This document shows positions 7,477 to 48,708 of a DNA stretch of 64,000 nt, piece after piece (the first letter of the stretch is position 1; each line of letters starts with the position of its first letter). A program made the translations under genes and the position numbers. This DNA is from Gavia stellata (taxonomy: Eukaryota > Chordata > Aves > Gaviiformes > Gaviidae). The stretch lies in contig NC_082598.1 of assembly GCF_030936135.1 (NCBI RefSeq), positions 50,002,347 to 50,066,346 on the forward strand. The letters are read 5' to 3'. Below the pieces are notes generated by a model. The model ran no database searches and had not been told where the DNA came from. It saw only the letters and a program-made list of their open reading frames with translations.

Positions 7477-10400
7477 ATCCATTTCAGTTCCTCACCAAAA
7501 GTGAACCTGCAAAGGAACAGACAGCTCAACCAGCTTTAGCCCGGAAACCCACTGTGATCCGAATCCCAGCTAAATCTGGGAAATGTAAGTTGTTCTTCCA
7601 AACCATCTGAGAAATCTCTGTCAGAAAATCATTCTGAGTTGCTGTTTACTAGTTATATTAGCTGCCAAAGGAATCTCGTGGTACAGTTTGACAAGACAGA
7701 GGAGCCAACCTAAGGGCTGTGGTGGGAGGGAGAAATAGTTGGGAGTCACGTTCCCCTCTCCCTGCTTCCCAGCTACCTCGTCTGGCTCCCTCCCTTTCGC
7801 TAACTTTGATGTCCCTCAAACCTTATGGAGCTATGCATGTCAGAGGTGAAACAGCATGGGGCGGATCTAAAGGCTGGCAGGGAACAGCTGGAGGAGACCC
7901 TTTCAGCAGAAGCAAGCTTGTCTCATCAGCTAAACCATATCACTGAGCTGTACCTTTGGTCAGATGGACTTCTGTTCTGACATCAGCTGAGGATATTTTA
8001 ATGCTGCTCCTGAGCTTCCTGGGAGCAGGGCCCCCACTTGTCAAAGGAACAACATTAGAGTAGTAAACTTTGCTTGAAACACAGCTTAGTTGGGATGTAA
8101 GCATAGTTTTCACAGCTTACATCAAAAAGTTCCCTTGACCCTTGTTAGATTTGAAATCTGTGGCCATTTAAGCAGTAGTATTTTGGTAGCAGTTGAGGCA
8201 ATAAAAAAAGCATGCGAGAACTGGGATGCAAAAACCTGATGTGTTCAATTTTGTGTCAAGGTCTTGACTGTAGTTTTCTGACAGTTACCGTATCCCTAAT
8301 GCCTTCTACCTCTAATCCTTTACAGCTTTACAAATGACACTGACAATATCTCAGAGTGGAAATTTATCAGAGAACCACAAGGTCTTTGTGTTGATCTTTG
8401 TATGCTGGAGTACATACTTGCTTCTGTTTTGCCTTATGTTTTATCCTCAAAGCTTAGGGAGAAATGTCACAAGATAGCTCTTAAAACCTGAATATCAAAA
8501 TCATGTTTTATTACACTGAGTAGGTGTAGAGCCATCTTGTAGCAACTAGATGTCCAGGTGGCTTTTCTCCTAAGACTTTCTCTCATTATTTCCCAAGTTC
8601 CCTTCTCTCCCCCCTCCACCCCAGTGCTAAAACAGTAGGTTTTCTTTTCCTCGGCATATGTGAGAAATTATTAAAAATGCAGAGAAAGCTGAAGATACAG
8701 CTATGAGGAAAAGTCTTTCTGTTAATACCTGACCAAAAATAGAAGGTTTTTTTTAGCTGAAAGAATATGCTTATGAACTAATGTAAAGAACCCAAGACAT
8801 AATTCTTCTCCACAAAGGAAATTGTGATTTCCATTTAAAATGAAAAAAAGAAGACATGACAATTTTTTTTTTTTTATTTACACCACCCCCACCCCCCCCA
8901 CACACCCCCCCAGCTAGATTTTCTTTTGAACTTGTAGATAACTGGTCCCTTGCTGCTCTCTAGTGGTAATTGAACTTTCCACAGGAGACTGCCAGTCATA
9001 CTGTACTTAGCTACAATTGTCAGGGGGGTGTGAAGGACTGCTTTATGGGAGGCTGTGGCTGGAAGATTAATGGGATGTGGAGGAACAGAAGCAGATTCCA
9101 AGCAGAGTAGCCTTTTGTCAGATAGGAGCTGCTGCAGAAATGTAAGCTGTTAGAAGTTAAAAAAATGAGAAAAGTACAACTGGGCCAAGGTATAACATGG
9201 ATATAGTAGGATTTACCTTGTAAGAGGGCCACATAATCTCAGTACAAGGGGTCTTTCACCATCATGGGTATGGAGGGAGATTAATTCTGTCAGGAACCAG
9301 CACACACCAAAAAGAAAACCCCCAATAAACCAAAAAAATCCCTACCTAGCACTACAAAAAAAAAAAAAGGACAGAGCTGGATGCTTAAGAATTTGAACTC
9401 CGGTAAAGCACTCACTTAGCATTAGCATTTTTGTCAAGATGTGATTAGAAAGGAAGCACGAAACTTCCACTTCAGTTATTACACTTAGAAATCACTGAAA
9501 ATAACACCTGCCTTACAGTTCTTGGGTTTTTTTTTTCCTTTATTTCCTTTAATTTTGATCTTATACAGAGTAAAGGCAAGGAAATTAGGCCATCTGTGTA
9601 TATATCAAGATTTGAAGTGGTGTGAATAAATAAATCTCGTGCTTTTTATATATCAGTAAGGTATGATAAGAGATTTCTCTTGCAATTACTGTCAGGTATT
9701 GTTTTTACTTTGCATCCATCATAGTAGCTTAGAAGAGTGATGAACTTCACTGACTTTTTTCCCTGTGCTCGGTCACTGCTAACATGGAAACTGTGACCTA
9801 AGAATAAGGGATTTATCCTTGAACTGATCCAGTTTTAAACATCACACCAGTGTTTTAGATCATAGTAATGCAACTGAGGCATTAAAAACAAACAACGCTT
9901 CTCCTTCCTATGTGTTATTTCTTTGTTGAGATTACTATTCATGAAATGAGCAACTGAAAGTTTTCATTTTGATAGAATCTCTCCTCTTTTTTGTCATCAG
10001 TCTATAAATGTCCAGGCTATCTACACATATTTTTACATAACTCCGAGACTGGCTGGAAGTCAGAAGAGCTTAAGTGTCTGAAGCTCTTTGTATGAAATGA
10101 ATTCTTTTAGTATACAAATACATTGTAAAATAAATGGCAAGGTTCCAATATATAAAGGCAAAATGATTGGTAAATATGCTGGCAAAACCTGTACAAGTGC
10201 TTCCCAGGTTTCAATGGCAGAGACGTTGAAAGCAAATGTCATATAATTAGCAGGGGTTTGTGTTCTTTATTGAGACTGAGGACATCATCGCCCTTCCGTA
10301 GTAAGAGCTGTACTGTTTCTTTCTCTGTGTCCTAAATTTGCTTAGCTCCTTAAAGACTATCAGGGAGCTTCCATCTCTGTTTTCTTTCTGTCACCCTGAA

Positions 10401-13400
10401 TTTTGTAGCAGGCAACGGTTTCTTTTCTTGCCTTTACCTTTCTGGAGATTCTTCCATCCAAGTCTCCTGATCTTTCAGGGTTACTTGAAATAACCTTCAG
10501 CTGTTTTCCAGCCTGAAGGATATTCCAGGAGCTGACAGCTGAAAAAAGTGAGCTACTTTAGAAATGTGGCTGAGAGATGGTGATGGTGTTTCAGGGTATC
10601 CAGTAATGAGTCTGACATTCCCAGGGATAGAAACTCTTCTACTCATCTAATATTATATCAACAAGTATTGCAGCTGAAACCCTTGAATAACTTGCTGGTG
10701 TCCTGAAAGTAAAGTGAAGATCCGTTATGCAGGATGGGAAGTACTCCTGAAGTCAACCTCAGAGTTGCAATGTTCCCTTCACATCCCTTTTCTCTTCACT
10801 AGTCTTTAAGTGGTCCTACCCATTGGCTGCTTTGGCTTTGAGGAAGGAAATTGTATTCACAACAAAATGCCCCAGCCAAGGTGGATTCCCTTACCTATTG
10901 TTGGTCCATGTAATGAAGCTATTAATTAGTCTTTCATTTGGGAACTTCTGGTTTTTTGACAGCTTTAAATGAAATTCCGCATAGCCCTCCGCCACTTCCT
11001 GCTGAAAAGCCTATTGGGAACACCTCCGATATCACAGTGGGAAAACCCAGCAGTGGTGGCCTAGTAAAAAAAGTGGTAAGTTAGAACTGTTTTCCTGTAT
11101 TACAACTTTGTCTGCATTGGTTAACAGATGTCTTGTGACTCTCAAGCATTTGTAAAGTAAGTTATTTGAAGGACCGAAGGATGAAAAGGACTACTCAAAA
11201 ATGTAAGGCTTTTTTCTTTTAATTGCATCCTCTAATTTAATTATGTAATTTGGACTGCTGTCAGTTCTGAAAAGCACTTTGTTGATTTTACTAAACTTTG
11301 ATCACATCTATCTTCAATTTTCTGTATTTAGCAGCTGGAATCAGGCTATTCTACAATTTAGTTTCAAAAGCATTGCAAAGTGGTTCGAAGTCCAATGAGA
11401 TTTACTTAGTGAAATATTGTCAAAGTCCTTTAGAAATGTATTTTTTTACCTTCATACACACAGTACCTCTCAGTGTCTGTGCTAATTTCCAGGCAGAGGA
11501 AACTTTTCTGTAGATGAATGAAGCTTGCTTTCTTCACCTCTTTCCTTCTAGTTGTTTTCTACTGGTCCTGTCAGAGCCTGAGTAGAACCATCTATTTTGG
11601 AAAGTAAGGCTCTGCTCCTCGCTCCTGAGCATATACTAATGGTAGACATTGTAGCTGTGTATCCTATATGCACTTTGACACAGATTTACAAAAAGGAATT
11701 AAAATAAACTAGAAAATGAGAGTAGAATTTCCAAATATTGAGTGCTGTGATGACAAGAATGGCAGAGAATCTTGTGGAAACCACAGGCCGTAAAAAGATC
11801 AAATCAAATCAAAAGCCGTCACTAGATGGACAACTGCCAACAAATGTCTTTGTGGCTACCTCTGCTAATAGGGTAAAGGGGTTTTTAAATGTCATGATTG
11901 AAGAGGCTATTCATAGAAGCCCCATCTTTTCTGGATAATGCTAAAAAATAATTTGCAACGCAAGACGTTAAATAATATTTTATACTGTGTCACCCCAAAA
12001 CTTTTACAGTGTCATCCAGGTTATTGTGACAGGCATATGTAAGCTTCAGAGGATTTTTTTTTTAAGAAGACGACTGCATCAAATCCACTGAAACATTTAA
12101 ATCTTGTCTTTGGAAAGATAAGAACTTCTGCGCTTGTAAAACTAGTATTGTTTGTCAGTGGAAGTGATTAACCAGTAACAGTAAAAATTGTTGACCGTAA
12201 ACAGCAGTTGGCACAGCTTTCTTCCTTTTCACACAGAAGAGGAAAATTTTGGTATGAGGACAACGTCCCCATCTGAAAGTGGCAGGTTGTTTTCTTTCTA
12301 ATCAGGATCGTTTGATCAGGAAGATTCATTTGGGGACTTAATTAAGGGTCAAAATTTTGTCACAAAATACATCTAGGTATTTTCTAGGTGGGAAAAATCA
12401 CAGAAATTGTTTACCATTTTCAAGCATGTGTATCCCTAATTAAATAAACAAGACTGTTCAGACCTATTTAAAACTACTGGTTCAAAAAGGATACTTTTGA
12501 AGCCAGAATCAGCACTCTGATTCACCATGCTGTTCCATAAGCAGCTGTGCTTGTTCAGCGGAGCTGGCAGTACTCTCTGGCACTGGGATGAAAATCAACA
12601 GCAGGAAGCAGAAGGGATGGTAACTTGCTAATCCATTACTGTGGTCCAAGCCCTTCAGACACGGCACATCTTCCCCTCTGCTGACTCTGCTACAGGGCAG
12701 TAGTCTCTGGCAGGGTCAGGATGGGCAGCTGGGAGGAGTGACGCCTTAATCTGCCAAAGCAAGATTCACCAGGGTTTATCTGTTAGATCTCTAGGAAACT
12801 TACTCAGATGCCTTCTTTAATGAGAGCTAATGTTATTTGCAAGAGATGCTGTCCTGTGTGAGTTGCATCAATATCGTGTTTTCTGCTTTAAGTCTGTTCA
12901 AAGTGTTTCATCTGTCAAAGTTAAATCAAAATTGATAATGTAACTGCGGCAGTTGGAATCCCACAGGCGGTGAAATTGTATGTTTGTATGACTCTCCTGA
13001 ATTTGCCTCTTAAGCCCTGACTCCCATGTAGTAGGAAAAGAGGGCTGGGTTATGCCTAATGCACAATTTAAGCTGTGATTCAAGTAGTCAGCCAGGTTAT
13101 TTACATCTCCCTCTATGTCCAACAAGACTTTAAAATGCTAGAACACACCATAATACTTACTACTTTATTCCCAGACCTCCAGAAACTCTTGTTTTTCCTG
13201 TCTGTAGGATATAATTTAATACAAGAAATGCATCATTTCAACAAGAACATTTTTGTTTCTTAGGCTTAAAGGAATGGCTTTTTTCTTTTGAATCTTTGTA
13301 GGAGTTGGATCATTCAGAACAGGGTGGAGTCCCTCAGCTAGAACCTGTACTACCCCCAAGGTAAGTGCAATTCTTCTGTGACTCACTTAAAAGGGGTGTT

Positions 13401-16400
13401 TCTGAGCAAGTTTGCCTAGTCAGTCTCAATGTAGACACTACCAACTCTAGTCTTAACTCAACAGGCTTGGGTAGGTGGTATGCTCACTAATAAATAGGCA
13501 GGAACAAGTTGCTAGCTGATTAATACTTGTTTGTACATTATTGGTATGAGCAAGGAGATTATAGGGGGACAGCTGTTTGGCTCTTCAGCTAATGTACAGT
13601 GGCTGCTGACAGTCATTCCTTTCTGCATCTTTAACCTTCTCACCCACAGCTGAACGTAGAACATCCCCTCTTGCATGTTGCTGACCTTTTGATCAACAGC
13701 ACTTGCACTTGTGGCTGGGTTTGAGTGGTGAAGGAATGGAGGTGGCAGATGCTGCCACCCTGAAAAGGGCAGATGCTGGGCCAGCATCTTCCCAGAAGCA
13801 CTGGCTAGTTTATACAGTTCACTTCAGACCTAAAACCCGTGGGAAGCTGTAGAATCAATTATAACCTTGGCGTTTTTTTTATTCTTTTAAACCAACAAGA
13901 AAGATCTGCAGAGGGAAAAGTAGCTGAACCAGCCTTAAATGCAGGTCCACTAAATGCCAGAGACAAACTGGAGGGAGATAAGGCATTGACTAGCTAGCCC
14001 ACTGCAGCTATCTCAGCATCTGCACTCTAAATCTGTGGGTTTAAACATAAGAGTTTGCTCTGTTGTGTCAGGACAAGAGAATCTTTCCGTTATTAAACTT
14101 AGTCTACCAATAATAATAAGTATTCATAAACAGGAAAGAATGGGGTTGTACCCACAAGGAAACACCTCATTATTGCCCCTTATGTGCTTGTTACTTTTGC
14201 CCGTTCTGTTTAGCATAACAGCATTCCTGATTCTCCAGAGGGTCTCTGGAACTGTAGTAAACATTTTGTCCTTTCACTCTTCTGCTCAAATGGATTTTAA
14301 AGTAAGCAGTAATAATTCTCTGAATTGCTTGATAGGGTTTTCTTGTTTAGTTGAGTTGCCTTACAAACGTATGGGTTGGTTTGTTTCCAGATTTAATGCA
14401 GTCTAACTTGGAATTTCCCCTTTTGTCAATATTAAAAATGCTTAGTTTAGGATGAGGCCAAGAAAGGGGAGAGGTGGAAGTTGAATAGAAGTGGAAATTT
14501 TTTTTGAAATTTAAAAAATAATCCATACTCAAGTACGAATAGAGAACACTTACCAGGAGCATTAGTAAAGCACTAGTATCTTCTCAGGTGGTGGGTGATG
14601 CTCACAAAATATGTCAGAAGGATACTCCAAAGATCCACTAATGCATATTTGTTGTGGTTGATAATTTTTACAGACCCTTGAGGAATTCACACAAGCAAAT
14701 AATTATGCTGAATTACACTATATGAAAAAAGGGAGACAATTGTAGCAGAAACTCACAGTAACTAGCCAAAGATTTCCCAATAGCAATCAAACAATATAGT
14801 ATTTTTGGAATAGTGGTAGTGCCAGGATTCTTAATAACAGGAAGCCAAAGTTTTATGTACATAATGGTTGTTTATAACAGAGGTGATTTTTAATTAGCAG
14901 ATTATTGATTTGGCCACACTCTTTGATTCTAAAAATCATAGCTCATGTGTACTGTATAGGCAGCTTTTTCTTCATCAATGCTTAGTAGGGGGGATTTTTT
15001 AGATTTTTTTAATTTTTTTTTTTTTAAATTACCACTGTCACTTAATAGTCTCTGATTTTGGTTTCTAAACTACTGGTACACTAATGAGTGTGTGATACCT
15101 CCAGCATTGCCAGAAAATGCAAGTATTTTCACTGGTGTTTTCTTTCTACAGTAGACATCTGTTGCATAAAAATGGTAAATTCTGCTGTTGATGCCATTGT
15201 GCAAAGTGGTGTCATATGTCATGAGTTTCAGCAGAGGTCCAAAAGTCACTTCAGGCAAGTGACATCCCAGGGAATGAGCTAGGCTGATTCCTGAAGACCA
15301 GCTAGATCAGCAGAGCTTCTCAGGGCTTTCACTAAAGCTCTTCACTAGAACAACTCCATCCAGAGGCAGCTTCAGGTAAAGCTCTTTCTAAAGGTGGATT
15401 GCTGAAAGAAATCCTGCTTATGTAGTGGGATCCCGAGAAAGCTGGCAGGCTGTTGATAAGCGAAAGTGGTGAGCAGACTTGGAAATATGTAGTCAAAAGA
15501 TCTGTCTAAGGACTTGGTCATCCAGTCCCAGTATCTGAAAAGTTCATGTATTCCCAGAGAGCTTCAGATACGACACACTCTACAGCTCAGGTCATCATGA
15601 GTCACATTTCCTTGTTGCATACTCTGTAGCTAGGGCTGTGGTGCAGGATGAGATGGCACATTTATTAATATGCATATTCCTCTGATTGGTTTGCCCAATT
15701 TTCAGGCCTGTGGATGGAAAAATTATACCTGCCCGACCTCCCCCACCTAAAGGTGTTCCGGGAAGGCCACCTCCACCAAAACTCTCTGCAGCCAAGACCT
15801 CCTCCCAGAAGGATGCTCTTTCACGATCTACTTCTGACATCGCTTCTGATAAAAAACCCAGCAAGTTCAGACTGGGACCCAAGAGAACAAAAAGTGAAGT
15901 TTTTAAAAATCCAGAACCAGCATTACCTCCTAGACCTAAACCGGGTCATCCTCTCTACAACAAATACATGGTGAGAGTTGAGATACTCTATCTGAGACTG
16001 TTGTTTATAAAACAGTGCTGGTTAAAATAGTAGTGAAAAAGGTAGTAAGGTAGGTTACTATGATGTGTTTTTCAACGTGCATCTATCAGCATAATCTTCC
16101 TTAGAAAATGCTAATAGATAAATAGTAATAAGTACTGTAAGGTAACACTAGAGAAAGCAATATATACATACGAAGTATAGATATATGTGTGCGTGTTTTT
16201 GTGTATATATGTAATTTTTATATAGAGAGAGGTATATATCTCTTTAATGCATAGCTTTTTGGGTTTGGAGATTCTTTTTACAGTCACCAGTTCAGAATTC
16301 TATTACAGCACGTAAAATGAAGCTAAATAATTGCATTTGTATGTTGTTTTTCCTTGTATATGTCCAAATGCTTAAGAAAATTGGGGGAGCATTAGAACTT

Positions 16401-19400
16401 TAAAAGTAGTTTACCTTGCTTAATCAAGCCTGCAAAGAGTGAGGAATGTAACATCACTTATCTTACATTTTCATCCTATCAATGCCATCCCTTTTCATTA
16501 TAAAAATGTTTCTTTTTGGTATTGCATATGTTGTTAGGGAATATTAAATATAAATGGATCAATATTACAGGTAAAAAGGAGAGAGTCTTTCCCTGGTCAG
16601 TGATCAGAGTTGGTGACTGCTTGAACCAGTGCTGTTGTCAAACAAAGCACCCACACAACCGTAGCATGAACAACATCAACATTCAGCATGAAGTGGAAGC
16701 TTTCTGTTGCCTTCTTTTTGATCTTCACTCTTGCATTTAAATCCTTGGTGGAGCAGAGGAGCACAAAAGAGAGAGAAAGATGTATCTAAGTTGATAGTAG
16801 GAACAGCTTTGATATAATGGAAGCATGTTGCTTCCTCTCTGGTGTAGCCACACCTATTTACATAAGAAACATGTGACATATTTTGTAGATGAGATTTTTT
16901 TTCAGTAGCAAATCACTAGTAATTCCCTGCCCTTAAGTGTTACTGTCAATGAAATTTTCTCCCAGGTTGTTTTTAGAGTGCCCTCCATGACAAATGAATA
17001 CATCTCCGTGTCATTGTGTTGCTGAACATCGTGTACTGTATGGTATGATACCAGTTAGGTGGCTAAGACACTTTCAAAGCGGATGAGAACACCTGGGTTT
17101 CTCGAAGTAGCAGTTCATATCACCAGCAGTCCATTCTGAATACCTTCCAAAGGAGCTTGTCCTCTTCCACTGGACTCCTAAATTAGTTACCTGTAGTAGG
17201 TGGTTTAAATAGTTCCATCGTCTGACCGTATTCACTTGCAGTGGGAATTTCAGCTGCTTAGACGTGAAACAAACTTTTCCATTTGCCTCTGTTTCTATTC
17301 AAGCTACCTGTGCCTCATGGAGTTGCCAAGGAAAATTGTCTTCCCAGGAATACTGGAGAACTGTCCTGTAAGGTAAGGCATTTTTTTCTGCCAATAAATA
17401 TTTAATGAGCAAGACTCCTGTTGCGTTAAAGTATCAAGTGCTTTAGGCTTTAAAGGTTACACTGAGAAATGTAATAGTGGTTTATTAAATCCTTGTGTTT
17501 CTTTAAGAAAAACAAAATAACCACCAAACCAAAACCCAATAATGATGATTTGCCTTATAGCACAGGGACATTCTGCTTATGGAGCAGAGCAACAGTAATT
17601 ACTTGGAGTGCCAGAAGGGAGAGGAAATTGGTAAAGTTTCTCTGTCTCATAGGAAGATAATCGCTCCCTTGGCTGAGTATCTGAAAAGTGGGCAAAAGAT
17701 AAGAGAGTAGTTTTATGAAGTGCTGTACATGATGTATCAGTATCATGATGTATCAGTGAATTGGCTTTGACATACGGACTTCAAAGTATTTTCCTCCCTC
17801 TGCTTCTACAGAACATAACCTGTTTTTAGGGCATGACTGCATTAATATTAAATAGCTAGTATAAATTATAGCCATGAGCAGCCTTTTTGATTATTATCAG
17901 AAACCTACATGGCTGAAATAGATTTCTATGCAATCTGTTGTTATCTGTTGTAATTCATATTATTCTGGCCTTCTCTTTGTCCATGTTGGGCTTTTTTGGT
18001 TGTTTTTTTTGTACGCAATGAATTACTTTGAACGTTATTCATGCACAGCGATTGTCATCAGTACAGTCTGAAAATTCCTAGTGGGTGGGATAGAGAAGAT
18101 TTTGAATATAATTTCCCTTTATAAAGATCCCACAACAAAATTGTCATTTCCCCTCAGTGTTACCTTCCTGTAAGCAAAGGCCTAGTGGCTTGCTCACCCC
18201 TCTAAAATGCTTGGCAGTCATCAGATCATAGAATCATAGATGTGCTGCCCCTGCTGAGTGTGCTGGGGAGAGTTGGCCTGGGGTGTTCCCTCCAAGCAAG
18301 GAAGAGTAACTGGCAGCACGCAGTACCAAGCAGCAGTGGAAAATTTGTCCACAACCCTTGCAATGACAGTTGGCATCAATGCTCCAGATTTCTGACCCAC
18401 AGAGATAGCTGAGGCTTTGTCTATTCTGGGAAAAGTTACATGCCTTCCCTTCCCTTTACTGGCTCAAAAGTAGATTTTGGTGAAACGCATTCTGGTTTAC
18501 ACTGGCAAAAGGCATACAGAATTCAGACCCATAGCTGTGTGACCAATACTAACCGTTGCCTCCAAAGGTGATTTCTGACACCAGAACAATGTTGTGTCCA
18601 AAGTCAGAAAATTACTTTCAAAGTACGTAACACAGAATCTCTGTTAGTATCTTCCATGATTTATAAACTACTTGGGTTTATTTGTTGTTGTCAGGATTCA
18701 AACCACCCTCCAAAAGTTTCTGACACAACTGCACCTCATGCTGTAGTCCTGCATGATTTTCCTGCGGGTAAGTAAATGTGAATATTCTGGAAGCTTGTTT
18801 TACTCTGAGACTTTCAAATTGGAATTTTCTTAGGAATTAGAGCTTAAAAATTATGACGAAGCTCAGCCTGCAAGGTCTGTGTGTAGAGTTGTTCAAATCC
18901 ATTGGTTTACCTATAGTTGGGCCAGTCTTTTAGTTAAAGCTAACTGGTTTATCAAGTATAATTAAGACTTTTTAAAAACTCATTCTGGATTTGTCTGTGG
19001 TATTTATATTAAGAAGGTTTTACTTAGAGAAAATCAGTGAGCGTGACAACTACTATTAACTGAAATGATGCTGTCTTACAGAGCATGCTGATGACTTGGA
19101 CCTTCATTCTGGAGACACCGTTTGTCTTTTGGAGAAAATCGATACCGAGTGGTACAAAGGAAAATGTGGGAATCGCACAGGGATATTTCCTGCCAGCTTT
19201 GTTAAAGTAGTTGTATGTAGGCTTTGTATACATTGCTACATAAGATCCTATTGCATTGTTTTTCTGTTTCTATTTTACTATAGCTCCTGTGTGTTTAACT
19301 CTATTCTGTATTTAGATCATCTCTTTTCCCTCTGGGAGCACAGAAGACATATCAACTTGTTTGTATGGTATTAGAAAGATGCTTGATTTGGCATGACCAA

Positions 19401-22400
19401 CTTGTATTATGGGAATTATTTTGCTGTTAATTTGAAGTGAGAAAATCATGGCCCTTACCATATTCTCTTTGTTAACCTAGGTAGTTTCTCAGGATCTACA
19501 AAGCAGATTATTTTTCACAGCTGCATGTAAGAATCAACACGCAGTAAGATGGTTGCTTTTTGTGCCTCCCCCCAGCTCCCCAGCTTCTTTCATTTTCTTG
19601 TCCCTTGAACTGTGCTGGAATCACCACTTTTATAGCCATGTAGTGAACTAGGTCAGGGCAGCAGTTGGGCCCAACGAAACATGTTTTTCTTCTTCCTAGA
19701 GTGTTTTTTTCCCAGCTGGATCAATTCGCATAAGTGGCTTACTAAGTGGCTGCACAAATGGTTGTGCTGGCACAGTGCAAGGAGATTGTGTTGTTGCAAA
19801 TGAGCAGCTTAAAGCAATCCTGTTACTGAATGTGACAGGGTGAAATCTATTGCAAGCCTCAGTCTGAGATGGAAGTCCATTTTGTGGCAGTAGAAAGGGC
19901 CGTTAGGCTATCTACACCAGCCATATGGACATGGAGGAATGCTAAACTGACACCAGGATGCAGTGAAGGTGTATGGCTGGGCATTAAAGATGGTAAAAGT
20001 CTGTGTCAAGCTGGGGCAGCTGGCAGAGATGAGCACTGTTGCTACATGGACAATACCAAGTATTTGGTAACTATCAGAGAGTGTAGGGTGTCTTGTTTAG
20101 TTTGTAATGGTGTTAGTGGAGAAAAATTTTAAGATTTGAGAAGTGCTGAAGAATAAAAACTAGACTTGGGGTTAGTAATAATGGAACCATACTCAAATTC
20201 GTTTCATGAGAAAGATTTGTTAGCTAAATTGATTACCTGCTTCTACACGGACCAGCAATTTAATTTAAAAGCTCTTGTTAGTACTGATGGCTAATAGAAG
20301 ATTTTATGTTAAAGCAGTGGAATGAATATTTGGTGTCAAATTCAGCATTAATACAGATAGATACACCTTCATAAAAGCTAGGGAAGATGTGTTTCAAATT
20401 TCTGTTTTAGCTTTAGAAGGGGGTTACCCTTTGAGTGCAAAAATCTTTTGTTTCAGCAAAACTAAAAAAAGGAAACAGAGTGCAGTACATGAGGCTAATT
20501 TACTGAGTGAATTCTCCTGTTCATTCATGTCAGATCTGATCTTGATACAAGGTCTGTATACAATACACTATAGTTTTACAATATTGAGCTGGGTATTAGC
20601 TTTGGTCTGGACACCTAACAGTAATACATGCTTTTTACTTCCCATAGAACCTTCAGAGCACCACAGATAACCAGCTCCTCTAGCAAGAGCACTGCAAAGA
20701 TTATTTGTCCTAAAAGGCAGCATGATTTCCTCCAGTCCTTCACATAAGCTAATGAAACATTCTTGTTGATTTTTATGGGAACTGGCTCATGCGATAGTGA
20801 GCTGTAACTCAAAGCTCCTCGCCAAGGGTCTCTAGTCTTGTAGTCTATCTCAGAGATCATCCTTTGTGTCACACCAAAAATACAATTGAAGTCCTCTTAT
20901 GATAAAGGTCTTCAATGCCGTCTGTTTGATACAACCATGTATTGATTTTCTAAATTATATTTCTCCGATTCAAGTGAGATCTGTGAGATGTGTTTTTGTT
21001 TGGAGGACAGCTGGCTACCAAAGCCCAGAAAGGATATGTGTAAACAATAATTTTGTCTATTGTGATTATATTGTGCTAATAAATAATAGAGAGCAATTAC
21101 CAGTTGAAAGTTGGGAGCTAAATGCAACAACATGTAGTAGCATCCAGTCTCATATTCTGTCAATCAGTCATGCCACAAGTAGAAACAGTAAACCAGCTTC
21201 GTAACAGAAAACATTAAAGAGTGCTCCTTGTTTGCATGAGATTGAAAAATGAGAAATCAGGCATACAAAACCAAAATCTACATTAATATGGTCATATATC
21301 ATAGCATGCCAGCGACTATGACATGGAGGTCATAACTGGAGCTGATGCTTAGCTGAAAAATAGATTATTTTAACCACTTCCAAGTTTATTGTAGTTATGT
21401 TGCCATGAGCTTGAAATGGAAGATTTCACTTATTTTGTTGTCTTATTAGATTGATGTTCCAGAAGAAGGCAACAGGAAAAAAATACCCTTTTCATCACAA
21501 TGTGTTAAGTGAGTCAGATAAATCTTATTTGCTTTCTCATGTTGATTTACTAGGAAGTAAAAAGATAACTTTGAAGCAGGTGTTATCTGCTCTGAGGTAT
21601 ATGGTTAACAGTTTCTTCACCAAAATATATTTTAAAAATTAAGCTCTCAAAACTGAAAGTTTATGATGTTTTAATAAAAGAGTCATATTCAGGTAAAAAA
21701 AGCCTAAAAACTCACTTCATGGCTTCAAAAAATTGGTAGATCACTTTTATTATAAATGTTTATATAGACATAGTCCCCTTCACTCACTTTCCTTCCTCTT
21801 ACAAGCTCTATTAGAAGAGCATTTCCCATAATTTTTCATGAAAATTGGTTACAGAAACTGTGAACCAATCCGATTAACTTCAGCAGCATTGCACTCTCCT
21901 GTCTTTGCTCCTGGCCGTGTTACTTTCTTCCAGTACCCTCATAAGATGTAACATGGTAGGGCTCCTACTCATTTGACAGAACAAGATAAAACGGGACAGA
22001 ACATAGGTGTACTTTAAGTAGAGAAATCTATCTTGTCTTAAAGTGTATAACTATAGAGGTGAGTCTAAAGTTCCCCAGATCAAATTATCAAAGGTACTTC
22101 AAGAACTTTCATTTCTGATTTGCAAACAACTTGTACTAAGATTTGTGGGAAGGAACAACTTTTCCTGCTGTTTTTACTCGATGTTTTATATGATTTCATA
22201 AATCATTCATTGCAGCAATTAAAGCAAATTCAGTCAGAGGCAGGAGCTAGTATCAATGGGATCGTTCAGTTTGTTCTTCAGATAGAGCTTGACTTGTTTT
22301 AACCGAAACTTTATTTTTAAAAGCTGCTTCTGCAACTAAGAAAGAAACAGAAAGTGCTAGCTCTGTGCTGAAGCTTTTTCAAAGATATGAGTGGGGGACA

Positions 22401-25400
22401 GGGGTGGGAATCAAGCTTCTTACATTGGTTGTATGCTATGATGCTATAGAAAGAACTAAAGCTTATTATCACTTTTTTCCAGCAAAGTATTTCTGATAAA
22501 TCAAAAATCTTATGAGAGTAATTTCTTGAATTTATTTTAATAGTTTATTAAATTATTAAAACTATTTAAGTGAGGAAAAAATTGATTTGCCTTTTCAGTG
22601 TTAGACCAAATTATGTAAAATTTATCGTATGCATTGATGTTTCTTTCTTTGATAGATAATTTATTTCCTCATGCCTATGAAACTGCCATGTATTTGGGAT
22701 TTGGGACAAATACACAACACCCACCCCCCACCCATGTTTGGCTGCATCTAAATTGGATGCTAGCTCAAAAAGATATCAAACTCTTAATAAAAGCATATCA
22801 AGACACTTACTTGGATATGGGCAAAAATATAAAATGGGACAGGTAGCCCAGAAACAAAATGGTATTTTTGTTGTTATTGTTTGGAAGAGAAATAGGGTCT
22901 TATGCAAAATACTGTAACAGCCAGGAATTGGGATGCAGAAGTTGCGTCCAGCTCCTCCAGGGTCCACATTCATCCTGCTCAGAAAGCAGAAATGAGAACC
23001 AGGGCTAGACCCCAATTTTCCACCTGTTCTATCTTCAGTGCATTCTTTCATCATTTTAATTAAAAGATATCAATCTGTATTTTGCACAATGCTGCCTTAT
23101 TATTAAGTGGAAAATAATAATAAATAAGCAAAGTAACTTTCTCGTCTGTTTGTGCAGAGGCCCAAGATGTGTAGCACGATTTGAATATATTGGAGATCAG
23201 AAAGATGAGCTCAGTTTTTCAGAAGGTGAAACTATTATCCTTAAAGAATATGTAAATGAAGAGTGGGCCAAAGGAGAGCTCAGAGGCACATCTGGAATTT
23301 TCCCCTTGAACTTTGTGGAAGTAATTGAAGATCTGCCTGGAACAGGTATGAGTATGTTTGCAAAAATCTTCAAGAACACAGTTTTGTACTGCATGCATAT
23401 AGGCAGCATATAGGAGAAAGGTACAAAAGGACAATGAATGCAGGAAGGAGGTAGAAAAGGAAAAAAGACAGGTAAGAAAAATCAAAAGCAACAGTAGGAC
23501 TTCTTAAGAAGTTATTCTTAATAATAATTTTGAATATCTAAAATGTCAATCATTAGTAACATTTTGAATAGTCATTGCTGCGATTCTAAGTTGTCCTTTA
23601 CTTATGTAGGTACAGGAGCAGCACTGAAGAACAAGGTGGAGGTTTCTTTTTCCCTTCCTCAGGTAATAAAATGTTACAGGTGAGAGACAGAATCTACATA
23701 GCAGTTTCATAGATTTACATAGACTTTCTATTATAATGGCAGATTAGCTGTACAACTTTAAACCTGAATGTAACACAACTCCCACAGCACACAATGCTGC
23801 ATGGGCACATCTTGAATTCTGTCAGTTGGCCTAAACTGATTGGATTCATAGCTTCTGGCAAATTAACATAAGTAAATTTTTACCCTTTGTACTTAGGCAA
23901 ATTCTTGTTAGCTCTATTTTAAGTATTGCTGCAGTGGTCTAATTTTGAATGTATTAATCCTGTCCCCTGCCACCAATGATAAAAAGGAATGTGTCTGAGC
24001 CTAGATGAAATTCTGTGGTAATTGCTGAAATGCCATTCTAGTCTACATCTGCAGTGATACTATTCTATGAGAGAAAGTCAGGACACCCGTGTTCTGTACA
24101 GCTGCTTTCACCAGTATCCATCAGCTTATGGGCTCCATTAACGCTTCTAAAATTAATGCATTTCTTCTGTTCGCTTGAATAGAACAACAGACACTCAGTA
24201 GAGTGGTGTGAAGCACTTCATGATTTTACAGCAGAAACCAAAGACGATTTATCCTTTAAAAAGGGAGACTACATCCAAATACTGGAGCAAGTAGATCCAG
24301 AGTGGTATAGAGGAAGACTGAATGAAAAGGAAGGGATTTTCCCAGCAGTTTTTGTTCAGACCTGCTCAGGTACAGTGCTCTTACTAGATGGCAATTCATT
24401 ATTCCTTGGGTTGTGACAGTCATGACAGTTCTGGGAGAACCCATCTATTCCAGAACCCATCTATTCCATTTTATTAACAAGCCACACACCACCTCAGTCC
24501 TTAATATCCTAAAGCTAAACTAAGCATTGCACCACCCTCTCTAATAATAGCAATATAATCCTGTAGTCAGTAAGTAATCTGGGAGGTGATACAGATTCTG
24601 AGTCAATTTAAAGTGCAGTTTGGGCACAGGCAAAACAGGACCATTGAGCTGCCTTTTTAGTAAGAATTCAGGGGTACAAAAGATGGGGCAGAGCTAGGTT
24701 CTCCCTCAGCTGAAGGGAAACACTGCAGCACAGCCAAAGAGCTGGTGGAGCTGTAAATAACCGTAACTGCTGCATCTTGGCACAGAACTATCGTACTGCC
24801 CTTGGTGAAGCAAGGACTGAATGCTACTTGCTCTCCTTGAGCTTCCATTTGGTCCCCAAATGAATGCAGTCAAAACCATCAGAGGACAGAAAATCGCATT
24901 TTTTCCCCATAGTTTTTGCAAGTAAAGCCATGAGTGAAAGTTGACAGAAAATAAATTCCACCTAACTGGCAAATAGCACATACCGAGTGCTGCTTCACCT
25001 CCACGTACAAAGATGAAAAGAGCTTTTATTAGATATTGTCATTGGAAAGTTCAAGTAAGTGAACTTTAAATTTAGTCCTCTTAGAAGCAGAACCATGGGA
25101 CTATGTTAGTACTGTAAAATGAACTGGTGTCAGTAGAGATTTTTATTCCATTAGGACAGTGAATTTGCTAAGTAGCAGTAGTAATAACATCTGGACACCC
25201 TGTAGCACGCTAGTGGGGAGAAAACAGGAGAATGACAGGAAGCTTCTCCAGAAGCAGAGATTTATTTAATTCCCATCCAAATAACTTGTCTTGTCCATGT
25301 TCTGCAGCCAGGGTAGAGCTGTCACAGTCTCTAGGAGCGAAGAAAGGAAAAGCCAGAGCTCTTTATGATTTTCATGGAGAAAATGAAGATGAGCTTTCCT

Positions 25401-26898
25401 TCAAAGTAAGTACCTCTCTTCTTAGCCCAATTTTCCAAAAGGTCTTATGCTCCTATAAAGAATGCTAAAAAATAGGATTATTCACAGTGAAAGTAGGCTT
25501 TGAACAGGAAAGAACAAAGCACATAGAAGAGGCATAAATACTAACACATTTGATAGCCTCTCAAAAAATTTTTGCCCTTACCACTTCTGTTTCATATTGG
25601 CAAAATCTTTACTGAAGACATTGAAAAGAGGTCAGGAATTGCAGAATTCCTCTGACTTTTCTGATCCAGTAAATGTGACAAAAAAACCAAATGTAATTTT
25701 GCAGTACATTCAGTTCTTGATCAGTTGATATGATCAAGGGAACCTCTTTTTAAACTAGAAAGACAGCAACAAGAAAGAGGGTATAGCAAGAGTGCCAGTG
25801 CTACACTAGTGATGCCTTTAAGGGATACCTAGTACAGCAACATCTCAAAGTTTGGCAGCACAACACATAGTTGCCATGGGAGCAAGGGGAGAAATGAAAT
25901 ACTTGCTGGATGGCCAGATAATACTAAGAATCATGAACAACAAACAGCGTGCCCTTCTAGATTCAAAGTCACGATTTAGGTAACTGTGTCCTCAAAATCA
26001 AGTTTCCGAGAAACAGCAGACTCTCACAGCAGGCCCCAAGTTGTGTTTATCAGCTGGAACACACTATTTTCTCTTTCTAAAGCTAGTAAAATTATTAGTT
26101 TCAGCATTAGCAGCTTGCAATGCTGGAAGGGCAGATGATTCTTTAAAGCAGAAAAGGGGAATGGAGGTACTGGAAGAAAGGTCAGGGCCATGACAGTGCT
26201 TCAGATGAAGGGTGTAGCACAGGACAATGAAAACACAACAAGCATCAAACACAGGAGCTGCAGTTTATTTTTAACAGCTACACTGAGCTACTTAGATGAT
26301 GATTGCTTTCCTTTTTGGGAAAGGAAAGTTTCTAAAGGAAAGAGGAAAGTTTCCAAGTGCTGGAAAATATTGGGACTAAATTTAAAAAAAAAAAAGCTTT
26401 AAAGCATTTGAAGAAAAGAAACCCTCATAACAGAGGAGGGAAACACACACAAATAACAAGAAAGGCAAGGGGCCTGTGAGCCAGCTCTCCAACATACCGA
26501 CCTACCTGCCTACCTACCTGGGGAGCTTAAGCAATGCAAGAAGTTATGCAGCAGTGCTATTTTTTTTCCTTTTGGAAGGCAGTGATTTTTCAGCATAGAC
26601 AAGTATTTACCCTAAGAGAAGCTTCAGCTGATTTTGGCAAACAATCTTGAAGAGATGTAACCAACAGAAGAGACTTCTCTTCTATTTGATTGATATTAAT
26701 TGCTTCTGAGTAACATCAGCTATGCATGCATTAACATTGCACAGTAAACTGTACTGGCTTATGTTACTCCTTCTCTTACAGGCAGGTGATACAATAACAG
26801 AGCTGGAATCCATAGATGAGGACTGGATGAGTGGAGAGATACAAGGGAAGTCTGGGATATTCCCCAAGAACTTTGTTCAGATTTTAAAAACACCATGA
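7477..26898 (+). CDS. SH3D19: SH3D19 (Eve-1), multi-SH3 adaptor, 3' two-thirds of the coding region
   Basis: Coding exons seen: 7477-7584, 10963-11075, 13302-13360, 15706-15970, 17304-17372, 18695-18767, 19082-19212, 21450-21508, 23158-23345, 23610-23662, 24183-24369, 25308-25405 and 26782-26898 (TGA). All have AG/GT borders and phases that join without a break, giving about 505 residues. The start of the protein (roughly 285 residues by comparison with human, 790 aa) lies left of the window. The first exons give a proline-rich linker (RPPPPKGVPGRPPPPK, PALPPRPKPGHPLY) with PxxP ligands for SH3 domains. Four SH3 domains follow: exons 18695+19082 (VVLHDF, EWYKG, GIFPASF), 23158 (ARFEYIG, EEWAKGE, GIFPLNF), 24183 (EALHDF, EWYRGR, GIFPAVF) and 25308+26782 (ARALYDF, EDWMSGE, GIFPKNF). 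The family binds ADAM metalloprotease tails and acts in membrane and cytoskeletal scaffolding. The human protein has a further SH3 domain before these; here its exon looks broken (see 17561-17698). Confidence 0.93.
8868..8913. repeat. Low-complexity T-run and C-rich tract
   Basis: A T-run is followed by C7-8 tracts broken by A and CA in an SH3D19 intron. The complementary strand has four or more G-runs and could form a G-quadruplex. Confidence 0.7.
15706..15970 (+). CDS. SH3D19: SH3D19 proline-rich exon
   Basis: This 265-nt exon completes a split Arg codon and then encodes 88 residues. It holds two RPPPPK-type blocks, a Ser/Thr- and Lys-rich spacer, and the PALPPRPKPGHPLYNKYM end that closely matches the human protein. 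The PxxP blocks are typical SH3 ligands, so they could serve intramolecular or partner binding. The acceptor is TTTTCAG and the donor ATG|GTGAGA. Confidence 0.9.
16160..16250. repeat. TA/TG-rich low-complexity tract
   Basis: Alternating TATATA, TGTGTG and AGAGAG segments form an imperfect purine-pyrimidine microsatellite in the SH3D19 intron after the proline-rich exon. Confidence 0.6.
17561..17698 (+). pseudogene. SH3D19: Decayed SH3-1 exon of SH3D19 (5' splice site lost)
   Basis: Between exons 17304-17372 and 18695-18767 lies a 138-nt (46-codon) stop-free block after a usable acceptor (CCTTATAG). It translates to NYLECQKGEEIGKVSLS followed by RKIIAPLAEYLKS. This lines up with the human segment NYLECQKGEDTGRVHLS..KIITPLDEHLRS, the body of the first human SH3 domain. 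At the expected donor the sequence is AAG|ATAAGA, not GTAAGA, and the next in-frame codons reach a stop. It is one codon shorter than human, and human RGD reads HRD here. Flanking exons are both phase 0, so skipping it keeps the frame. Use of a rare AT donor, or a base error, cannot be excluded from sequence alone. Confidence 0.75.
18695..19212 (+). CDS. SH3D19: SH3D19 SH3 domain encoded by exons 18695-18767 and 19082-19212
   Basis: The two exons (intron 18768-19081, phase 1) together encode an SH3 fold. They give VVLHDF as the ALYDY strand, DDLDLHSGD before the n-Src region, WYKGK for the conserved Trp, and GIFPASFV at the 3-10 helix and last strand. In the predicted bird protein this is the first complete SH3, and the second in the human order. 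All hallmark ligand-groove positions (Trp, Pro and the final aromatic) are present. Confidence 0.9.
23158..23345 (+). CDS. SH3D19: SH3D19 SH3 domain (single exon)
   Basis: A full SH3 domain lies in one 188-nt exon: CVARFEYIGDQKDELSF opens it, EEWAKGEL carries the conserved Trp, and GIFPLNFVEV closes it. The acceptor is TGTGCAG and the donor ACAG|GTATGA. The match to the human domain at the same place is nearly residue for residue. Confidence 0.9.
24183..24369 (+). CDS. SH3D19: SH3D19 SH3 domain (single exon)
   Basis: This 187-nt exon encodes WCEALHDFTAETKDDLSF, then EWYRGRL and GIFPAVFVQTCS, a complete SH3 domain. The preceding 53-nt exon (23610-23662) is a linker that is poorly conserved against human. 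The exon begins with codon AAC directly after the acceptor and ends in phase 1. Confidence 0.9.
25308..26898 (+). CDS. SH3D19: SH3D19 C-terminal SH3 domain, last two coding exons
   Basis: Exon 25308-25405 encodes KARALYDFHGENEDELSFK and exon 26782-26898 encodes AGDTITELES, EDWMSGE and GIFPKNFVQILKTP, then TGA. The intron (25406-26781, phase 0) splits the domain after DELSFK, exactly where the related human domain is split. The protein ends within a few residues of the last SH3 strand, as in human. Confidence 0.9.
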
Positions 26899-32807: not shown

Positions 32808-37503
<4,696 letters not shown>

Positions 37504-40570: not shown

Positions 40571-40596
40571 CCTGACCCCACTTTCCACAGGTGCCC

Positions 40597-41028
40597 ATGG
40601 CGAGCTGGGGCCTATGCATGGCCCTGGTGCTGGCAGCACTGGCAGGGGCGGTGGGTGAGAGCCGCTATGAGAAGTTCCTGCGGCAGCATGTGGACCACCC
40701 CCGGACATCCGCGATCGCGGCGCACCGCTACTGCGAGACCATGCTGGCACGCCGGCGGGTGACGGCCCCAGGACGGCCCTGCAAGCCCTCCAACACCTTT
40801 GTGCACGCTCCAGCCGAGGAGCTGGTGGCTGCCTGCACCCAGACACCTGATGCAGAGGGGTTCCACAGCACCCCAACACCCATGGGCCTCACAGCCTGCC
40901 GCCTGCGGGGGAGGGACACCCGGCCCCCTTGCGCCTACCGGGCTCGGCAGCTCCAGCACCATGTGCGTGTCGCCTGCCTTGATGGGCTGCCCGTGCACCT
41001 CGCTGGCACCCACGCGCCCCCCCAGTGA
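40597..41028 (+). CDS. Secreted RNase A-superfamily ribonuclease, angiogenin-like
   Basis: 143 residues in one exon. Residues 1-20 form a signal peptide (hydrophobic ALVLAALAGAVG); the mature part starts near ESRYEKFL. Hallmarks are His31 in FLRQHVD (first catalytic His), Cys62-Lys63 in CKPSNTFVH (catalytic Lys block) and His134 in GLPVHLAG (second catalytic His). Six cysteines (46, 62, 80, 101, 112, 127) give three disulfides, as in angiogenins rather than the four of RNase A. RYCETMLARRR resembles the human angiogenin RYCESIMRRR segment, whose basic cluster is its nuclear signal, and PPCAYRA matches PPCQYRA. Family members cleave RNA and act in host defence or vessel growth. One oddity is Ala136 where angiogenins have Asp after the catalytic His (PVHLD). 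The first ATG after the acceptor is used; an upstream GTG two codons earlier is unlikely to be the start. Confidence 0.9.
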   Translation: MASWGLCMALVLAALAGAVGESRYEKFLRQHVDHPRTSAIAAHRYCETMLARRRVTAPGRPCKPSNTFVHAPAEELVAACTQTPDAEGFHSTPTPMGLTACRLRGRDTRPPCAYRARQLQHHVRVACLDGLPVHLAGTHAPPQ

Positions 41029-46626: not shown

Positions 46627-48708
46627 ATGCGCTGGGCAGACCTGCTTGTCCTTCTCCCTGCAGCCCCGTACCGGCTGGCGGCTTTCCCCTTCGCCGCTCT
46701 CTTCCACCACCTCTGTGCTTCAGGGCACCTCTCTCTGACTGCCCGGTATGTGGTTGTCACCCCTGCTGCTGCGCGGAGGGCAAGTCATGCCTGTGGATGC
46801 TTTCTGGGGGCTCTCCTGGCCAGAGGTGCAGCAGGATGCATGGTAGTAAGTCCCCGCTGACTCGGGTAGGGACATTTGTATGGCTTGGATGTGAGCTGTC
46901 CCCAGTCCCCACTCTCTGCAGTGGGGCCAGATCAAGGTCGTTAAGGACTAAACAGCCAGGCCGGACACTTCAGGGTTGTGAGAGATGGGTTTAGGGATGT
47001 ACCAGGATGAGCACATGGGCAAGGGGAGAAGGGCAGGAAATGGGAACTGTCTCTGGTGTGACTAGGGTGGGGGACAGGCAGGGCCAGCAATATCTGTCCC
47101 AGTCCCCCCCCTCCATTCCTGCTTGCAGCTGCGATGGCCCTGGTGATCCCTCAGCTCCATGAGAGGCCAAGAGGCAGACTACAGGGGGGCTGTGGAGGCT
47201 GCAGGACCCAGACTAAGCTCCACTATCAACGCTCTGGCAGGAGTTTCAAGCCCCATTTTCCGTAAAAGGCAGCCAAAGGGCATCTGGTCTCTTCTAGGTA
47301 CATATTCCTCCTCGCTGGAGGATGTCTCCTTGCTGGCACAGCCATGGGCAGCTACGCTGTGTTGCTCCTCATCCCTGCAGCTGGCTCCGTGCTTGTCCTC
47401 CTCTCCGTCAGCCCAGCTCATGCCCACACCTGGGTCTTCACCCTCCAGATGTCCTGGCAGACACTCTGCCACCTGGGTCTGAGCAGCTGGGAGCTGGACC
47501 CACAGGATGCCAGGTAACACCCCAGCTCTGCCTCCTTCCCGCTCATCCCCTCGGCACACTGGCGGCCCTCCCAGTCATTTTGTGAGGGTGGAGGGCCCCC
47601 CGGACCGCACTGGCTCGCTGTTTCACAGCCATCAGTCTCCACTCTGGCTCCGGCTGCATCCCTGTGCATGGGTGATGCTGTGGGCAAGCCAGTGCTCTGG
47701 GGGTGTCGGACATAACATCCCCCGTCTGCAGCCTTGCGCCCGTGCCTCTAATAATCCCATTGAGGCCGTCTCGGCAGCTCTCAGGTTCCCTCTCCTTCCA
47801 GGCCAGCCGTCGCCCTCTCTGCCATCATGCTGCTCACCCAGAAGGCTACGTCTCTGGCCCTGGACATCCACGAAGGGCTTGTGCCACTCCAGCTGGGCCA
47901 GGGGCTTTTGCATGGCGCGCTGCCTCTCTGCAGCTACCTGCTCTATTTCCCAGCCCTCCTCGGAGGTCCCCTGTGCTCCTTCAGCAGGTTTCGGGCCCAG
48001 GCCGAGTCCCGGGGTGCTCTCCGCCGCCCGCTGAGGGCCGCCAGCCAGCGGTGCCTCTGCGCACTGGCCCTGCAGGGGCTGCGCTTGGGGCTGGCGGGAG
48101 GGCTGGCCGGCGGGCAGGGCTGTGCCGGCCTGGGCTGCCTGCCCCGCACCTGGGCGCAGGCCCTGCTCCTCAGGCTGGCCTACTATTTGCACTGGGTGCT
48201 GGATGAGGCCCTCCTTGAGGTGGCAGGCTTCGGGCCGGAGGCGGGCCAGGGCGACCTTTCCGTCCGTGATCTGTGGATGCTGGAGACAACCCACCGCCTG
48301 TCCGTCTTCGCCCGAACCTGGAACAAGAGCACGTCCCGCTGGTTGAGGAGACTCGTCTTCCAGCGCTGCCCAGCCCAGCCACTCCTAGCCACCTTTGCCT
48401 TCTCTGCCTGGTGGCACGGCCTCAGGCCCGGGCAGGTCTTTGGTTTCCTGTGCTGGGCTGTCATGGTGGAGGCCGACTACCGCATCCATCCCTTCCTCAG
48501 TGCCTGGGCCACCTCTCAGGGTGTAAAGCTCCTCTACCGTGGCACAACCTGGGTCTTCACGCAGCTCATCGTCGCCTACATCCTGGTGGCTGTGGAGACT
48601 GAGAGCTTCACCATGCTCTGCCTGCTCTGGACTTCCTGCAACAGCATCCTTCCCCTCTCCTACGGCCTCGTGCTGCTGCTCCTTGCCAAGAAGCCGAAGC
48701 AGAACTGA
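46627..48708 (+). CDS. MBOAT4: MBOAT4, ghrelin O-acyltransferase (complete)
   Basis: Three coding exons: 46627-46745, 47298-47513 and 47802-48708, all GT-AG with frame kept, giving 413 aa (human 435). This ER multi-pass enzyme of the MBOAT family attaches octanoate to Ser3 of ghrelin. The start [20 protein letters not shown] aligns with the human N terminus (FYQGAAFPFALLFNYLC against [13 protein letters not shown]). Exon 2 carries FLLAGG..AMGSYAV and [13 protein letters not shown]-like [12 protein letters not shown]. Exon 3 has [17 protein letters not shown], the MBOAT Asn286 in [17 protein letters not shown], and His317 in [18 protein letters not shown]. Their spacing (31 residues) equals that of human Asn307/His338. 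Many hydrophobic segments alternate through the protein. The shorter length comes from a reduced loop before the [13 protein letters not shown] block. Codons are GC-rich like the surrounding DNA. No AATAAA lies close after the stop. Confidence 0.95.

Follow-up and report, generated by a model that had tools for sequence, protein, structure and literature searches.

Has the SH3D19 gene of Gavia stellata lost the first SH3 domain of its product through the change of a single base? The question is raised by a 46-codon open block at 17561-17698, which lies between two coding exons and is followed by AT where the gene's other mapped donors read GT. The window analyzed here, i.e., the whole stretch of 64,000 nucleotides, corresponds to positions 50,002,347-50,066,346 of contig NC_082598.1, within an assembly of 1.32 Gb. 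We consider it reasonably probable that a G-to-A change at +1 disabled this donor, that exon 17304-17372 became joined to 18695 and that the remainder of the first domain (SH3-1) was thereby lost. Judging from the gene model, the likeliest outcome is a protein that lacks its first SH3 domain.

Human SH3D19 protein, used as query and reference throughout in a provisional version (residue numbering included), gave 12 collinear plus-strand tblastn blocks between 7461 and 26889. Splice sites and phase turned these blocks into 12 exons, and a search restricted to open, phase-matched candidates flanked by AG and GT supplied two short ones, 13302-13360 (donor AAG|GTAAGT) and 23610-23662, the latter a weakly conserved linker. 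A direct join of 23345 to 24183, with no exon between, was rejected: it meets stops, and the frame closed up once the two short exons had been added. SH3D19 is thereby mapped as 14 exons on the plus strand (7477-26898), open to one terminal stop that ends at 26898. The model starts with an exon of the N-terminal part (7477-7584), further 5′ exons lying outside the mapped set, and continues with two proline-rich exons (10963-11075 and 15706-15970, the second with donor ATG|GTGAGA) on either side of the first short one. These three exons are placed by tblastn, splice sites and frame. They are followed by the two exons of SH3-1 (17304-17372 and 17561-17698), by 18695-18767, placed by tblastn, acceptor match and frame, and by the exon that completes SH3-2 (19082-19212). 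A linker exon at 21450-21508 corresponds to the weakest of the 12 blocks (21450-21509, E 0.097), which is nevertheless in place and in phase. The remaining exons carry SH3-3 (23158-23345), SH3-4 (24183-24369), the first part of SH3-5 (25308-25405) and the rest of SH3-5 with the stop (26782-26898); like 19082-19212, they are supported by tblastn, Pfam and frame. Acceptors are AG in all 14 exons. The mapped reading comprises 553 letters, stop included, with exon 17561-17698 and 507 without it, and is open both ways.

Across the 12 blocks and the two short exons, the exon order is collinear with the provisional human protein, beginning in the proline-rich part and ending with the last SH3 domain. 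On the minus strand, SNORD73, which we take to be hosted by RPS3A, lies at 33169-33238 (Rfam RF00071, 76.3 bits), and an RPS3A-like N-terminus is found near 37.4-37.7 kb. By these two features RPS3A is present as a neighbor, tail to tail with SH3D19, as it presumably is in human. Judged by exon order and neighbor gene, and not by the count of SH3 domains, the gene at 7477-26898 is the SH3D19 (Eve-1/EBP) orthologue. Other features of the window were noted in passing. An open reading frame at 40576-41028 (plus strand), not far from RPS3A, matches PF00074, the family of pancreatic ribonuclease A, with 90.5 bits; chicken RNase A genes lie on another chromosome. Another, at 47764-48708 (plus strand), has an MBOAT domain (PF03062, 58.7 bits) and is MBOAT4-like by eye, and a kinase-like frame at 51753-52817 (minus strand; PF00069, 57.6 bits, with HRDLCLEN) is PRAG1/PEAK-like by eye. 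The frame at 56118-57236 (minus strand) has no Pfam match at 0.01. At 54916-55042, a 68-base unit is repeated 1.9 times at 100%; either the duplication is very young or the assembly is at fault.

The exon at issue comprises 138 bases, i.e., 46 codons in phase 0-0, with neither stop nor frameshift, and reads ...CCTTATAG before and ATAAGAGAGTAG after. Since 46 open codons are expected by chance in about 4% of cases (one frame, local composition), the open frame by itself is weak evidence, and it is the homology to SH3D19 that settles its status as an exon. The tblastn match (17570-17689, E 1.75e-9) is in its collinear place, the whole-exon alignment has 25 of 46 residues identical to the provisional human sequence with one gapped codon, and both flanking exons, 17304-17372 and 18695-18767, are matched as well. 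Human residues 484 and 485, in provisional numbering, straddle the AT donor without a gap. The block, its frame and its donor are as the sequence-only reading had described them, and the assignment to the first SH3 domain of SH3D19 holds on E value and identity. The same is true of the 23-codon exon 17304-17372, said to carry the opening strand of the domain (LPVPHGVAKENCLPRNTGELSCK): it is matched to the provisional human sequence by tblastn and alignment, and its splice sites are good (13 of 16 acceptor pyrimidines, donor AAG|GTAAGG). To call the acceptor of 17561 good was generous: AG is present, but only 9 of 16 positions are pyrimidines, the second lowest among 12 acceptors counted (range 8-14). 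The finer observations that RGD reads HRD and that one codon is gone agree with the human sequence, in its provisional version only.

The composite SH3-1 (17304-17372 plus 17561-17698) scores 17.8 bits against PF07653, or 17.0 with a longer tail, where the cut-off is 21.8 and the provisional human sequence reaches 45.0; the model may, however, be tuned to mammals. SH3-2 to SH3-5 have best Pfam scores of 53.7, 44.5, 63.7 and 56.0 bits, compared with 49.9, 47.3, 62.0 and 58.8 in the provisional human sequence. Four SH3 domains therefore pass their cut-offs, and the one that does not is the one whose exon has no GT donor. Eve-1 is reported to have five SH3 domains and to bind several ADAMs (PMC4380453), a count to which this bird gene does not conform. 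In exon 17561-17698, identity to the provisional human sequence (25/46) falls short of that in the exons of the other SH3 domains (162/218, p 0.012), but no clear deficit is seen against the exons outside the SH3 domains (139/222, p 0.32). The evidence for erosion of SH3-1 in these comparisons is real but modest: the claim that the domain is eroding draws support from the Pfam score and from the contrast with the other SH3 exons, and is weakened by the contrast with the non-SH3 exons and by the lack of any stop or frameshift.

Donors are GT at 12 of the 13 mapped sites, GT having been a search condition for two of those 12 (13360 and 23662). The exception, AAG|ATAAGA after 17698, is the sole AT, as had been noticed from the sequence, and the splice dinucleotide of this exon is lost at the former 5′ splice site ATAAGA (17699-17704). 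Scored with a provisional donor matrix, 11 donors range from 0.0 bits, at the AT site, to 11.4 bits; the donor at 13360, outside these 11, reaches a total of 12.5 bits. When +1 and +2 are left out, the AT site scores 7.0 bits and ranks second of the 11, which argues for a strong donor with one base altered and not for a chance AT. Since it is among the strongest donors of the gene apart from +1, one G-to-A change is enough to explain it. On this scoring, it is only +1 that has worsened.

A human intron bears on the ancestral state. Intron 6 of human SH3D19, of 838 bases, is reported to have an alternative TG acceptor, used as a minor variant beside the canonical AG (PMC2374985, table 1), in a set obtained by screening introns whose donor is GT. 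Its 24-base acceptor motif fits the acceptor at 18695 best among 12 introns (score 11; next 9), and, of all 1129 AG ends in the window that are rich in pyrimidines, 2 reach a score of 11, 18695 being counted among the candidates. By this fit, the intron before 18695 is likely, though not proven, to be human intron 6; because of the motif match and the nature of the screen, the orthologous human intron probably has a GT donor. From the strong remainder of the donor and from this intron, we infer an ancestral GT at 17699-17700. The comparison for the ancestral exon consists of homology to the provisional human exon and the matching human GT intron, and was made with human only. A TTG is also present within 18672-18694, 20 bases upstream of exon 18695. 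Human and bird would thus share what is probably the same intron, with a splice irregularity in each; in human it concerns the acceptor, whereas in this bird it concerns the donor.

Alternatively, AT may be a miscalled base, or an allele that segregates in the species and was carried by the one individual sequenced; the species would then normally have GT and include the exon. We hold this to be unlikely, but not negligibly so. The region is assembled in a single copy, so a second haplotype is not at hand for comparison, and the exon is open, with an AG acceptor and good bases at the other donor positions, as expected of an exon in use. Polymorphisms at splice dinucleotides do exist, with 212 validated SNPs reported in human (PMC2882926). 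On the other hand, the open frame and AG/GT ends of the other 13 mapped exons speak for good base quality, even if such ends and frames had guided the placing of the exons, and the failure of SH3-1 alone to reach its Pfam cut-off suggests relaxed constraint. A 511-base DNA search of the genome for a second haplotype gave one match, the window itself, and the exon is thus present in a single genomic copy. A retrocopy was also considered and rejected: a protein search of the genome gave 58 matches, seven of them in the window, and since the other 51 are all confined to query residues 62-137, no match outside it covers SH3-1. A putative second SH3D19-like gene on the same contig (36.177-36.195 Mb) was discarded as well, as its SH3 exons are SORBS2-like; we take them to be SORBS2. 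Searches with the SH3-3 exon confirmed no SH3D19 orthologue in viral_contigs (21 pattern matches), and none was confirmed in genome_contigs (122 pattern matches).

The preferred reading, loss of the donor followed by skipping, can be laid out as follows. Ordinary (U2) introns require a G at +1 if they are to be spliced. A G-to-A change at this position in an otherwise intact SH3D19 would disable the 5′ splice site after 17561-17698; the 3′ end of the exon would, for that reason, no longer be defined, and 17304-17372 would be joined to 18695. With an exon of 138 bases in phase 0-0, skipping would keep the frame, as the sequence-only reading had proposed and as the open 507-letter reading confirms, and the protein would lose 46 residues. 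The 23-residue opening strand of SH3-1 would stay as a linker, and SH3-2 to SH3-5 would be kept. Since these four domains stay sound, we expect them to be translated in frame from the majority of transcripts, which skipping would achieve most simply. The open frame and AG acceptor that exon 17561-17698 retains, as a used exon would, count against loss.

If the acceptor at 17561 is still recognized, the exon could instead end at a cryptic donor, either 17630 (TTG|GTAAAG) or 17687 (AAA|GTGGGC), or in the intron, and the transcripts would be truncated or would decay. Within the exon there are three candidate donors, at 17594 (3.4 bits), at 17630 (GTAAAG at 17631-17636, 4.5 bits) and at 17687 (GTGGGC at 17688-17693, 4.9 bits), and the latter two outscore the mapped donor at 19212 (3.4 bits); their use would lead to a frameshift and an early stop. 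One ATTAAA, at 17847, lies past the stop that read-through would meet. No frame-keeping cryptic donor was found: all 10 GT or GC sites with a positive score in 17561-17950 lead to a premature stop after joining to 18695. Such products end before SH3-2, yet SH3-2 to SH3-5 remain SH3-like, so that cryptic splicing or read-through can hardly be the main outcome, and we give it a low probability. A minor fraction of such transcripts is possible.

It is also conceivable that the AT is used as it stands, as a non-canonical AT-AG site, and that transcripts continue to include the exon, completely or partially. Apart from +1, the site is a good fit to the donor consensus, and the frame of the exon is intact. 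Human AT-AG introns are reported to be spliced, and A-to-I editing to GT-AG is described for three AT-AG sites, one of them U2-like; the same source reports that a single mismatch at the U2 splice dinucleotides dramatically impairs splicing, which speaks against use of the site (PMC4176328). The ACTR10 intron of some primates offers a parallel: it is an AT-AG intron derived from GT-AG, so that, as in SH3D19 here, a GT donor became AT, but it is seen spliced in human, whereas the bird site is known from sequence alone (PMC4176328). Several features of the locus weigh against this route. The donor after 17698 is not U12-like, the U12 form being ATATCCTT. Editing is disfavored where G precedes the edited A, as it does at A17699. 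Neither inverted repeats nor the local fold revealed an editing duplex over 17699: none of the six inverted-repeat pairs of at least 14 bases in 16500-19300 has an arm over it, and shuffled sequences fold about as well as the local one (z -0.92; 18 of 100 shuffles fold as well as it does). The predicted pairing of A17699 ranges from 0.16 to 0.94 with the folded length. We regard inclusion by way of the AT site as improbable, and the further proposal that the AT donor is conserved in a bird group and still used, spliced as AT-AG or after A-to-I editing, which would make SH3-1 inclusion a conditional switch, as more improbable still. Since AT-AG introns are sometimes spliced, actual skipping is something that we infer from the sequence, as are fixation of the change and the effect of the loss.

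On the preferred reading of skipping, the donor change looks recent because the exon has neither stop nor frameshift; measured against the evolution of birds, it probably happened not long ago. The intact frame, donor flanks and acceptor limit divergence since the loss to less than 0.097-0.157 substitutions per site at 95%, depending on the assumed indel ratio and assuming neutrality with no selection since the loss. If birds accumulate near 2e-9 substitutions per site and year, the limit corresponds to an age under some 50-80 million years.

What the protein would have lost depends on what SH3-1 did. The ligand pocket of SH3 domains is formed by the aromatics of ALYDY, W, P and Y/F. In a five-domain alignment of both species, SH3-1 is without the usual pocket residues in the bird and in the provisional human sequence: the ALYDF position reads AKENC and ANEDI, respectively, the GIFP position GKVS and GRVH, and the tryptophan is a tyrosine in both, although single columns are uncertain because SH3-1 is only 15-20% identical to the other eight domains. 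It is doubtful, given these residues, that SH3-1 bound proline motifs before the donor broke. Against solved structures, the bird SH3-1 composite gave three weak matches, two endophilins (E 0.13 and 0.59) and one unrelated protein (0.77), and the human SH3 region, in its provisional version, found no SH3D19 entry among the best 60 of 142 matches. Since SH3-1 is atypical in the provisional human sequence too, the loss would be smaller than one of five SH3 domains suggests. For this reason, and because AT-AG introns can be spliced and both the skip and fixation of the change are deduced, the sequence-only reading went too far in presenting the locus as clean domain loss from an adaptor.

SH3D19 is reported as a scaffold that binds ADAM proteases and raises growth-factor shedding (PMC4103893, PMC4380453), and its isoforms Eve-1c and Eve-1d are reported to bind ADAMs 9, 10 and 17 (PMC2211485). 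Among the titles and abstract openings listed for the literature searched, we found no report of the SH3-1 exon in birds. If AT is fixed, a single-base, frame-keeping change would have trimmed a domain from a scaffold, caught before the exon decayed and with the opening strand of SH3-1 left behind in the protein. Such a case would help to ask if scaffolds with several SH3 domains can dispense with the atypical ones.

Exon loss by splice-site change is a known process, of which SH3D19 is plausibly an instance. Wang et al., in 2015, reportedly described exons lost in a species-specific manner after their splice sites had weakened or been broken. A review describes weakened splice-site recognition as a route to exon loss (PMC12992808); there, and probably here, an ancestral constitutive exon stays in the genome, unspliced after a splice-site change, whereas our case is the sequence of one genome with the exon frame still open. 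Exon 3 of TNNI3, reported in the same review as lost or inactivated in moles and shrews and partly skipped in bats, likewise is one exon gone from a working protein, but it involves several lineages and is tied to heart physiology, and SH3D19 here involves one species, read from its sequence (PMC12992808). Exon 6 of Drd3 is reported to have been repeatedly deleted in vertebrates (PMC12198306): one short exon is lost from a working gene, birds included, by deletion in Drd3 and, in SH3D19, probably by a donor change that leaves the exon in place.
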